Virus record (IMG/VR): IMGVR_UViG_3300005613_000444
Location: 1 to 22,141 of that record
Reading direction: 5' to 3' (one strand)
Length of the DNA stretch: 22,141 bases
From: a virus
In this document: one piece after another, positions 7,541 to 19,169 of the stretch
Position numbering within the stretch: the stretch's first letter is position 1
Layout of the letters: each line of letters starts with the position of its first letter
The notes under the pieces: model-generated
Told to the model about the DNA's origin: nothing
Databases searched by the model: none
Seen by the model: only the letters and a program-made list of their open reading frames with translations
Program-made: the position numbers and the translations under genes

Positions 7541-7903
7541 CTATTCCTTAATTTTTCTTGGTACTTCTTTTTCATAAGTACTAATTACATCGAAGGCTAC
7601 TCTCTTAGTAAACTGAGTTGTTGGAATATATTGACCAACATTACCTTCGCTTCCTTTAACGTATCTTCTTTTAACTTCACGGCATGAATCATTTAGCATT
7701 TCAAAAAAAGCTAAAGGTCTTTCATATATTTCACCGTCTTTAAATTCTTCTCTTACACCCTGTGGTGCTATTTTCCAAACAGCTCCTGGGTGATCTTTCA
7801 TTTCTATATAACTGAAGCGAGCCTTTGCCCAGACTTCAATATCTATGTCTTTTTTTTCTTCCTGTTTTGGTTCTTCTTTCTTTTCTTGTTTCTTATAAAC
7901 CAT
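7541..7903 (-). CDS. Hypothetical late-region protein (120 aa)
   Basis: A 120-residue protein with a highly charged Lys/Glu/Gln N-terminus (residues 1-20, MVYKKQEKKEEPKQEEKKDI), then a compact mixed domain (WAKARFSYIEMKDHPGAVWK ... FFEMLNDSCREVKRRYVKG). There is no membrane segment or recognised catalytic motif. It sits between the HNH endonuclease gene and the adaptor gene, so before the HNH insertion it probably followed the 207-aa head-associated gene directly. The charged leader is typical of capsid-interior or connector-associated small proteins. I do not recognise the family, so only a structural or assembly role is suggested by context. Confidence 0.55.
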   Translation of the reverse strand: MVYKKQEKKEEPKQEEKKDIDIEVWAKARFSYIEMKDHPGAVWKIAPQGVREEFKDGEIYERPLAFFEMLNDSCREVKRRYVKGSEGNVGQYIPTTQFTKRVAFDVISTYEKEVPRKIKE

Positions 7904-7921: not shown

Positions 7922-8560
7922 TTACTGTTTTACATCTTCTCTAAAATATTTGCTATGCACTTTTGCGTGGCAGGTAGTACACAACCAAATTACGTCTAAT
8001 GGCTTGCTATAATCATGATGGTGAGCTTGTAATTTTTCTTTAATTTTACATTCATCACAATTTAACGATTTCATAATTTTTCCATTTTTTAAAGCATTAG
8101 CTAGAGTATATCTAGCTTTAATCTTATTCTTATTTTTTTCTCTATTCTGTTTAAAATATTCAAGTGCTTTTTCTTTATTGCTTTCATACCAATTTCTTGA
8201 TCGTCTTCGTGCTTTTTCTCTGTTTTTTTCTAAATTTTGCTTGTAACATTTTATATATATTTCTTTATATCTTTCTGGATTTTTTTCTTTCCACTTTTTG
8301 ACTCTTTCTTTTTCTTTTTCTGGATTTTTAGCATAATTGTTTCTTGCATATTCACGTTGCTTAGCTAAGTAGTTTTCTTTATTTTTTTCTATCCACTCTT
8401 TTTTTAATGTCTTCTGTCTTTCAGGATTTTTTTCTTTCCACTTTTTGTTTTTTTCATTTGCACATATTTTACAATAAGGTCTTAACGAACTTTTTCCAGA
8501 TGTTCTTTTATAAAAATCTGATTCTGCTTTCTCTATTTTACATATACTACACTTTTTCAT
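7922..8560 (-). CDS. Free-standing HNH endonuclease (probable homing type)
   Basis: A 212-residue, very Lys/Glu/Asn-rich protein. An N-terminal zinc-binding pair, C4xxC7 and C30xxC33, is followed by a long basic helical region with repeated WKEKNPER-type units (residues 41-48 and 90-97, with relatives between), likely for DNA contact. The C-terminal HNH fold has C168xxC171, the catalytic H180-H182-D183 block (AHHHDYSKPLDVIWL) and C194xxC197 ending in AKVH. It cuts DNA with a beta-beta-alpha-metal nuclease centre. The gene interrupts the structural run between the head-associated protein and the 120-aa protein, and its codons are more A-rich than its neighbours, both signs of a mobile insertion. 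Its ribosome binding site is locked in a hairpin (8560-8593), as in phage T4 homing endonuclease genes. Confidence 0.8.
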   Translation of the reverse strand: MKKCSICKIEKAESDFYKRTSGKSSLRPYCKICANEKNKKWKEKNPERQKTLKKEWIEKNKENYLAKQREYARNNYAKNPEKEKERVKKWKEKNPERYKEIYIKCYKQNLEKNREKARRRSRNWYESNKEKALEYFKQNREKNKNKIKARYTLANALKNGKIMKSLNCDECKIKEKLQAHHHDYSKPLDVIWLCTTCHAKVHSKYFREDVKQ

Positions 8561-8593
8561 ATGTTAGACTCCTTTTTACAGGAGCCTAACATA
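8560..8593 (-). promoter_or_regulatory. RNA hairpin sequestering the HNH ribosome binding site
   Basis: On the mRNA (minus strand) the arm TATGTTAGGCTCCT pairs with AGGAGTCTAACATA over 14 consecutive base pairs (one G-U), with loop GTAAAA. The 3' arm contains the AGGAG Shine-Dalgarno sequence and ends on the A of the ATG at 8560. Read on the plus strand the G-U becomes an unpaired A/C mismatch, so the fold is complete only in the HNH mRNA sense. Such a structure would silence translation from long late read-through transcripts and allow it only from a transcript starting inside the hairpin. No obvious terminator T-run follows it in the minus direction. Confidence 0.75.
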
Positions 8594-8621
8594 ATATTAT
8601 TTATGTACATATACCTAAGTA

Positions 8622-9245
8622 TTATACACTACCAAGATCAACATATGTATCGCTCAACTCAGCTCTTATATAAAGAATATCATCAGCAGCACCAACAACA
8701 GAAGTTCCAAGAGTAATCCCTTTAAATCCTTCTGCTTCAACAACTTTAGATAAATTGTATACAGTTCCACCAGTAGTTTCTGCTACATATGAACTTGCGT
8801 CCAAATCTAATGAAAAAGTTGTACCATCTATAATTTCCTTAATATAATAAGGCTTAGCAGTATCATTCAATTCAACCATTTCATCTAAATCTTTAAAACG
8901 AACTGCATCTCCAGCTGTCCATCCAGTAGTAGATGTGATTGTTACAACTGCTGGATTTGCTGCTGTAATTCCAGAAGCTGTTTGATAATTACCAGTTACG
9001 GCAGATGTATCATACAAAGTAAAGCCATTAGTTGTTGTAATGGCTCTATTTAACCCATCATCTTCTGTAATTTCTGTTAAGGCATAAGCGTCAGCCATGC
9101 CTTTGTGCCAGTAATGTTTTACTGTTTTGGTATCAGTTTCCCACTGCGTGTAATTCCACACAGTAACGGTATTAGGTTCAAACCCAATATCTAAGTTATA
9201 AGCTGTACCAGCTGAAGTTAATTTAAACTTCCTTTCTTGACTCAT
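8622..9245 (-). CDS. Head-associated structural protein with FCCH-like module
   Basis: A 207-residue beta-rich protein encoded directly after the major capsid gene (gap of 10 bases). Residues ~95-165 carry the pattern 'ITAANPAVVTITSTTGW.AGD.VRFKDL..M.ELN....Y.IKEI.DGTTFSLDLD.S.Y...TGG', which I recognise as the FCCH-like beta module present in many phage structural proteins. The flanks are hydrophobic-alternating strands; the C-terminus ends in DILYIRAELSDTYVDLGSV. It has no cysteine. Position immediately after the capsid gene favours a decoration or capsid-stabilising protein. It was probably followed directly by the 120-aa gene before the HNH gene arrived. The role is inferred. Confidence 0.6.
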   Translation of the reverse strand: MSQERKFKLTSAGTAYNLDIGFEPNTVTVWNYTQWETDTKTVKHYWHKGMADAYALTEITEDDGLNRAITTTNGFTLYDTSAVTGNYQTASGITAANPAVVTITSTTGWTAGDAVRFKDLDEMVELNDTAKPYYIKEIIDGTTFSLDLDASSYVAETTGGTVYNLSKVVEAEGFKGITLGTSVVGAADDILYIRAELSDTYVDLGSV

Positions 9246-9255
9246 GTTATTTCTC

Positions 9256-10212
9256 CTAACTGTTTAAAGTACAACGACCCCTTACTAAAAATAGGTCATT
9301 TAGAATCTTAGCCGCATGCCAACCTTTCCAGCCTAGAGAAGATTTTTGTTTCAATCTGTCACCAGGACCGCCAGGAGGTGTGAATATAGACTCAACATTA
9401 CCGCCGCTGATATCTGTGATACCATAGCTATCTTGACCAGTAATATAAAAGTCATAAACTGTGCTAGTACCTGCCAAATCACCATTAGCAGTTAATGGAG
9501 CTTTAGAAGACATACACCAACGTACGTTGTCTGTATAACCTCTTTCACCACTTTTACGTGCTCCAGGTGTTGGGTATTGGTTAATTGGAACCCAAGAATC
9601 TAAATCTTTAAGATCTCTATAAACTGCTGTGTTTGTCATACAGTAATATGCTTCATCAAGTGGAGCTGTACCAACTTTGTTAGATGCTCCCATGATTTCA
9701 GTAAACATTTTAGCGTTATTGTTCATTAGAGTTTGAACAATAGTGTCAACATCAGCTTGTGTTACTTCGGTTGGAGTTTTTAAGTTTCCACCGTTAGAAC
9801 AGTTGTAAATAGAGCCAGTTGCTTTCAACACATCAAAAGTTAGTGTGTCATAAGTACGACCCATTTGCTCACCAAGTCTTTTGTTAACTTGATTAGCTAC
9901 AGGATCTGATACTGTTAGCTCTACAACATCGGTCATAACGACGACATCCCCATATTGAGAAAGTACCGCATCCATACGAGTAACATCAACAATTTGACCT
10001 TCTGGCTCTACGCCTTCTGTCAATGGTGTTGTTGCTTCGTCAAATTCTTCGTATCTTGACCATCTGATACGATCGGAGCTATTTTTTGGAATGCTTTTCA
10101 TCTGACCGAACTGATTAGCGATCAACATTGGAACAGCAATATCCAAAAGGTTAGGTCCATACCATACTCCTACTGCATCAGGTATTTCAGCAGTGGTATT
10201 AACGTTAGACAT
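9256..10212 (-). CDS. Major capsid protein, N4-gp56 family
   Basis: A 318-residue protein with the diagnostic N-terminal series of the N4-gp56 major capsid family: 'YGPNLLDIAVPMLIANQFGQ' (18-37), 'IPKNSSDRIRWSRYEEF' (41-57), TPLTEGVEPEGQ (62-73) and the strand motif QYGDVVVMTDVVELT (86-100). The protein forms the HK97-fold icosahedral shell. A Gly/Pro-rich loop FTPPGGPGDRLKQKSSLGWK lies near the C-terminus, and the protein ends ILNDLFLVRGRCTLNS. The gene follows the scaffold gene by 12 bases with a good ribosome binding site (AGGATAAAAT before ATG at 10212). No prohead protease gene is visible nearby, consistent with separate scaffolding. This is among the most secure calls in the window. Confidence 0.9.
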   Translation of the reverse strand: MSNVNTTAEIPDAVGVWYGPNLLDIAVPMLIANQFGQMKSIPKNSSDRIRWSRYEEFDEATTPLTEGVEPEGQIVDVTRMDAVLSQYGDVVVMTDVVELTVSDPVANQVNKRLGEQMGRTYDTLTFDVLKATGSIYNCSNGGNLKTPTEVTQADVDTIVQTLMNNNAKMFTEIMGASNKVGTAPLDEAYYCMTNTAVYRDLKDLDSWVPINQYPTPGARKSGERGYTDNVRWCMSSKAPLTANGDLAGTSTVYDFYITGQDSYGITDISGGNVESIFTPPGGPGDRLKQKSSLGWKGWHAAKILNDLFLVRGRCTLNS

Positions 10213-18977: not shown

Positions 18978-19169
18978 ATGGAATGGTCTCAATTTTTAGT
19001 GCTTCTAATTTCATTTACTGGTCTGTTCTTTTGGAATAGATCTGAATCTAGAAGCGATTCCAGACGTATGGAAGATTTAATAACAGCTATCCGTGAAGAC
19101 ATGAGAGATTTTCATGGAAGGCTTTGTGCAATAGAAGAAAGAAACAAACCTAGGGGAAAAAATGATTAA
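18978..19169 (+). CDS. Small membrane protein with FHGRLCAIEE motif (early operon copy)
   Basis: A 63-residue protein. A transmembrane helix at residues ~4-19 (SQFLVLLISFTGLFFW) is followed by an Arg/Ser-rich linker (NRSESRSDSRRMEDLITAIR) and the motif DMRDFHGRLCAIEE (residues 41-54), then a basic tail. The last 14-residue motif is identical to that of the 59-aa protein at 360-539. Counting the codons, the two motif copies differ at ten of 42 bases, all synonymous, so selection keeps the protein motif. The gene lies between the 82-aa gene and erf and overlaps erf by eight bases. Tail residues would face the cytoplasm if the helix inserts N-out. The function is unknown; a membrane-tethered regulator or recombination partner is possible. 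Confidence 0.65.
   Translation: MEWSQFLVLLISFTGLFFWNRSESRSDSRRMEDLITAIREDMRDFHGRLCAIEERNKPRGKND

Follow-up and report, generated by a model that had tools for sequence, protein, structure and literature searches.

The hairpin that covers the ribosome-binding site of a free-standing HNH endonuclease gene in the window (the whole 22,141-nucleotide stretch analysed) is probably, with a likelihood that we put at roughly three in four, a cis-acting RNA switch of a mobile HNH cassette, by which the endonuclease would be translated exclusively from a short transcript of its own. About 25 divergent HNH genes, which belong to unrelated phages and in most cases follow the capsid operon, carry an equivalent covarying hairpin linked to a sigma70-type promoter. 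The hairpin, its recurrence, its covariation, its RNA-strand bias and its promoter signature are established by sequence statistics.

Gene order and the HNH gene

The features of the window are collected in Table 1. The first-pass annotation had described a P22/N4-mosaic phage with the HNH gene lying within the block of late structural genes, and both points were borne out by the P22-type portal, by the annotation of the capsid protein's relative in Pseudoalteromonas phage vB_Pun_Y3 as N4-gp56 family, and by the free-standing HNH gene among the minus-strand structural genes.

Table 1. Features of the window, with positions counted from its first nucleotide.
Feature	Position	Strand	Basis or remark
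Window			22.1-kb IMG/VR virus record; structural genes on the minus strand
Structural gene order		-	terminase, P22-type portal (PF16510), scaffold-like gene, capsid, P8622, HNH ORF, more structural genes
Major capsid protein (MCP)	9256..10212	-	PF25209, phrog_1357
P8622, capsid-associated, FCCH domain	8622..9245	-	PF16190; between MCP and HNH
Candidate extended -10, TGT-TAGGCT	8583..8591	-	in the 5' arm; weak match; alignment and family-wide -10 enrichment
Alternative -10-like hexamer, TATTAT	8591..8596	-	foot of the 5' arm; score 3.7, poor -35
SD-sequestering hairpin	8560..8593	-	sequence, folds, covariation with L015, L058 and L020
Hairpin, 5' arm	8593-8580	-	
Hairpin, loop GTAAAA	8579-8574	-	
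Hairpin, 3' arm	8573-8560	-	
Shine-Dalgarno (SD), AGGAG	8569..8573	-	8 nt from ATG; entirely in the 3' arm
HNH / endonuclease VII-like gene, 212 aa	7922..8560	-	phrog_2340, phrog_2255
Next structural gene	7541..7903	-	own SD and start form the right edge of the HNH cassette

The HNH product matched the profiles phrog_2340 (endonuclease, 2e-34) and phrog_2255 (HNH, 7e-8), while no Pfam match and no significant PDB match by sequence or fold was obtained. It consists of an N-terminal zinc ribbon (CxxC..CxxC), a long tandem-helix linker and a C-terminal motif, CxxC-HHxDYSKPLDVIWLCxxCH in the window and CxxC-HHxDYSKPLxVxWLCxxCH across the relatives, whose HNH-type Cys and His residues are invariant in 22 relatives. 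The AlphaFold2 model reached a pLDDT of 94.7.

The cassette extends from the 3' end of the P8622 gene to the SD and start of the following structural gene, the latter edge being common to the empty-site relatives L007 and L008. P8622 orthologues occur in relatives with and without the HNH gene; what looked like insertions within P8622 in L221-L240 proved to be a second, small gene with an FCCH domain. Syntenic genomes are polymorphic at this one site, L007-L013 being without and L015, L020 and L058 with the HNH gene. The phylogenies of HNH and MCP are largely discordant, and vertical co-inheritance with the capsid was rejected as weakly supported (Mantel rho 0.28); the capsid of L015 is 78% identical to that of the window, and its HNH, in the same place, is only 36% identical and belongs to a different clade. 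This discordance is consistent with mobility of the HNH gene. In cultured phages, HNH relatives occur within split DNA-polymerase genes of Herelleviridae or downstream of SSB genes, both of which are typical locations of homing endonucleases; the enzyme of the window is a putative homing endonuclease.

Structure of the hairpin

The minus-strand RNA from 8593 to 8560 reads TATGTTAGGCTCCT-GTAAAA-AGGAGTCTAACATA and forms 14 unbroken pairs around a 6-base loop, exactly the stem that the first-pass annotation had noticed over AGGAG and the first base of the start codon, the final stem base 8560 being the A of the ATG of ORF 8560..7922. Its statement that one pair is G-U on the mRNA strand and A/C on the opposite one likewise holds: the only wobble pair is G8585.U8568, where the plus strand has an A/C mismatch. 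The folding of the minus-strand RNA, which it had proposed as a check, gave a stable structure, stronger on the HNH strand (isolated hairpin, -20.5 kcal/mol, versus -14.6 on the plus strand). In a 91-nt context the values were -30.3 (z -7.0) for the minus and -16.1 (z -4.1) for the plus strand. Opening of the SD is calculated to cost about 15 kcal/mol in a long transcript and 0.1 in one that begins at 8581 or further downstream. In the minimum-energy fold of 8530-8614 (minus strand) the 5' leader UAUAUGUACAU additionally pairs with early HNH codons, and this outer helix would surround both hairpin and start codon. Searches with the exact hairpin pattern gave 0 matches in viral contigs and 0 in bacterial genomes, and no match was found in Rfam.

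Recurrence, covariation and strand bias

HNH relatives were collected by profile searches (first set, n=73; enlarged set, n=130 distinct), an SD hairpin being defined as a perfect stem of at least 10 bp over the SD and the controls being genes from the same contigs. Within the first set such hairpins, of 10-20 bp, precede 18 of the 19 HNHs directly after P8622, 5 of 54 elsewhere and 2 of 432 control genes; with a stricter P8622 call in the enlarged set the first figure was 15/19. Among all 130, they occur in 21/44 capsid-region HNHs versus 7/86 elsewhere. Of the HNHs no more than 2 kb from the capsid gene, about half have a short SD hairpin or none, and many of these that lie directly after the capsid gene still show a TATAAT-then-CTCC..GGAG layout. 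Since the arm sequences of the members are mostly unrelated, it is the pairing that is kept and not the sequence.

When viral contigs were scanned blind with a query of nothing but upper stem, loop and SD, at least 119 matches were returned. Among the matches listed, four have stems of at least 12 bp, and three of these (L015, L020 and L058) precede HNH genes, all directly behind a P8622 orthologue. The L015 hairpin reads CATGTTATGCTCC-GATAAAAA-GGAGCATAGCATG; that of L020 has a 22-nt core in common with the window, the two HNHs being only 35% identical. Compensatory changes in homologous HNH insertions, suggested earlier as a test, were found: in the alignment of the four hairpins three pairs are altered on both sides, and 94.6% of the cells are paired versus 29-46% when the arms are slid. 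When hairpins were detected in a strand-neutral manner, G.U and A.C wobbles on the HNH strand stood at 31:3 (p = 4e-7) and in controls at 5:5; as the sequences are related and the p-values ignore kinship, these are optimistic. Covariation of the stem, together with the preference for G.U over A.C, indicates that the RNA of the HNH strand is the object of selection.

SD hairpins are also found on HNHs at other loci, namely L211 (after SSB), L391, L342 and the cultured Klebsiella phage VLCpiS13b (L423, ON602744), whose HNH relative behind SSB has a 9-bp hairpin, ACCCCCGAACGGGGGT, preceded by TGATATGAT. Stenotrophomonas phage StenR_269 (L418, OR838459) carries an annotated 'intron homing endonuclease' directly before its capsid gene, with no SD hairpin there. 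A non-HNH gene (MGNIQKKDGFIFYKSFYDSINALD...) at L026:3082-3120 (minus strand) has a 14-bp SD hairpin with the same loop type. At the post-P8622 site of L229 (4290-4640) lies another, unlike small gene (CxxCxxCC; YkgJ-like on visual inspection) preceded by the 11-bp SD hairpin CGCTAGACTCC-A7-GGAGTCTAGCG, which suggests that the hairpin may serve cargo other than HNH.

Promoter signature inside the hairpin

The -10 and -35 elements were scored as sigma70 type, the use of sigma70 being an assumption. A -10 score above 4 at 14-26 nt before the SD was obtained for 73% of the hairpin HNHs versus 14% of control genes, and for 77% of a second group, situated directly after the capsid gene, in which TATAAT is followed by a short CTCC..GGAG stem. 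Since the sequence of the 5' arm follows from that of the SD arm by complementarity, virtual hairpins were built on control genes; they exceed a score of 4 in 26-32% of cases, and pairing with SD and spacer does not by itself explain the enrichment. The -35 score, which is independent of the stem, is highest in the hairpin HNHs when the spacer measures exactly 17 nt and is flat in controls (Wilcoxon 4e-4); in the second group the peak lies at 17-18 nt. Examples are TTGACA-18-TATGAT (L169), TTGACT-17-TATACT (L148) and TTGACT-17-TATAAT (L153). With the start predicted 7 nt past the -10, the leader of the hairpin HNHs would be about 17 nt, and the cost of SD opening falls from 12.5 kcal/mol in the long transcript to 1.6, compared with 2.9 for control genes.

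The promoter match of the window itself is among the weakest: TATTAT (3.7, with a -35 of -1.1) or TGTTAGGCT. In the alignment, TGT-TAGGCT coincides in position with TGT-TATGCT of L015 and TGA-TATGCT of L058. As both -10 candidates are weak, the promoter of the window is deduced by homology. The earlier suggestion of a short transcript starting inside the hairpin thus stands for the family and is carried less well by the window's own sequence; support for a promoter whose short transcript would omit the 5' arm is strong in the former and weak in the latter.

The stem-loop behind the capsid genes

Seven phages without the HNH gene (L007-L013) have capsids 67-94% identical to that of the window. 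In these HNH-free relatives the gap between P8622 and the next gene is short and contains a GC-rich stem-loop, with a T-tract in most. Phages with the HNH gene mostly lack this ordinary stem-loop, the SD hairpin being the sole one, and those that keep it (L140, L308, L220) have a weak SD hairpin or none, a complementary distribution that is based on 3-4 phages only. This suggests that the SD hairpin either has a second role on the capsid mRNA or is needed only where read-through is unblocked. The HNH of L220 (4268-4725) is truncated to its N-terminal part and has its own TTGACA-17-TATATC promoter.

Alternative explanations

An unlikely, though not negligible, alternative is that the hairpin is mainly the 3' stem-loop of the capsid operon (terminator or RNase barrier), adopted at the landing site of the HNH gene, with burial of the SD as a by-product. 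The stem-loop of the HNH-free relatives speaks for it, as does L220, where the hairpin upstream of the truncated HNH is homologous to that of L142/L145 and the SD has changed from GGAG to CGAG with pairing kept by compensation. In HNH-containing phages, however, almost every SD hairpin is followed by ATG rather than a T-tract, the SD is placed in the 3' arm at normal spacing, a -10 box in the 5' arm would be superfluous for a terminator, and SD hairpins occur at the other loci named above. In the window TGAAAAAG comes next instead of a T-tract and no terminator is called at the site, and identity as an intrinsic terminator was rejected there.

It is very improbable that the palindrome is a DNA element, for example a site recognised or cut by the endonuclease, or one bound by an autorepressor. 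Near-perfect palindromes do adjoin an endonuclease gene, I-TevI binds such an operator (PMC2988022), and the window and L020 retain a common core despite their divergent HNHs, but the excess of G.U over A.C is unexpected for a DNA palindrome, for which reason it was rejected, and the arms differ wholly between most members, with the centre fixed by the SD. Chance formation of a functionless hairpin is less credible still. Dinucleotide shuffles of the window yield 0-2 stems of at least 14 pairs per 22-kb strand (mean about 0.3); a 14-pair stem is therefore not rare by itself, and the case rests on the relatives, where the repeated presence of hairpins at the orthologous site, the covarying stems and the strand bias contradict chance. 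SD stems of at least 12 bp occur in 0/432 control genes, and both the position of the window hairpin on the SD site and its conservation are beyond chance.

Proposed mechanism

Under the RNA-switch reading, the HNH cassette occupies the gap that separates the capsid genes from the following structural gene, replacing the stem-loop that HNH-free relatives carry behind the capsid operon. On the long read-through message from the capsid promoter the 5' arm would pair with the SD and start region, and ribosomes would be unable to begin the HNH gene despite abundant RNA. In the family, a sigma70-type promoter would have its -10 box in the 5' arm, and a transcript beginning about 7 nt past it would start in the loop, without the 5' arm and with the SD free. 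Because the SD would be buried on the long message and free on the short one, the endonuclease would come only from the latter, insulated from the strong capsid transcript. Translation repression, promoter use and timing are what we infer from these data. The timing is likely to be reversed relative to I-TevI, the long capsid transcript being presumably late and the internal promoter sigma70-like.

Comparison with known systems

In T4, a stable hairpin hides the SD of I-TevI, I-TevII, I-TevIII and segB in long transcripts (PMC2988022, PMC3014915), and the promoters of I-TevI, segB and, outside T4, Aeh1 mobE are sited so that short transcripts escape the hairpin (PMC2988022). The analogy with the I-TevI type drawn by the first-pass annotation is apt (PMC2988022): in I-TevI and segB, too, the endonuclease SD is buried in the long transcript and a promoter in or next to the hairpin gives a short translatable mRNA, and the sequences analysed here show the SD and start paired in the long transcript and covarying hairpins in homologues. 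The T4 genes, however, have their own middle or late promoters and encode mostly intron-borne GIY-YIG enzymes, whereas the window family has a sigma70-like promoter, a free-standing zinc-ribbon HNH, podophage-type capsid operons and probably inverted timing. Similar in enzyme type is mobE of the Aeromonas phage Aeh1, a free-standing HNH homing endonuclease whose RBS-sequestering hairpin lowers translation (Gibb and Edgell 2007, 2009, as summarised in PMC2988022). According to that summary it differs in belonging to a T4-like phage and lying inside a ribonucleotide reductase gene, and the reviews (PMC2988022, PMC3014915) report no family-wide conservation, sigma70 -10/-35 signature or replacement of a capsid terminator.

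The T4 genes e and soc are likewise silenced on read-through transcripts by an SD hairpin and translated from short late ones, but they are structural or lysis genes and not mobile endonucleases. Lambdoid morons are cargo genes with their own promoter between structural genes, usually insulated by a terminator; the window family resembles them as an inserted cargo gene and differs in being insulated by a hairpin at the start codon.

The view of the window as an independent example can be kept in part: phage group and promoter type argue for independence from the T4 systems, with common descent from intron-type HNH cassettes a conceivable origin, but it is one member of a recurrent feature of the HNH family and not a lone case. 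In the open-access literature, covered incompletely, no earlier report of such hairpins in such phages was found, and the reviews describe RBS-hiding hairpins on homing endonucleases only for T4-like phages (PMC2988022, PMC3014915). The window family differs from I-TevI, segB and mobE in its phage group, its sigma70-type promoter, its repeated occurrence behind the capsid operon, its substitution for the capsid stem-loop and, probably, its inverted timing.

This distribution points to a widespread mechanism that would keep such genes silent on capsid messages and have them made only from their own, a general solution for a selfish gene living in a highly transcribed late operon. A fuller reading, to which we give somewhat less than even credence, is that of a widespread portable promoter-in-hairpin cassette of uncultured phages, which would swap for the capsid stem-loop and take over its role for the capsid mRNA, silence itself on the late capsid transcript, be expressed early by host sigma70 with the I-TevI logic inverted in timing, have evolved outside T4-like phages, and sometimes carry other cargo (L229). 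The signature (-35, 17 nt, -10 in the 5' arm, anti-SD, A-rich loop, SD, ATG) is searchable and amenable to testing with simple reporters.

Other small genes in the window

Near the opposite contig ends, the small plus-strand ORFs 321-539 and 18978-19169 have a common C-terminal motif, DMRDFHGRLCAIEE, and are possibly the result of a gene duplication.
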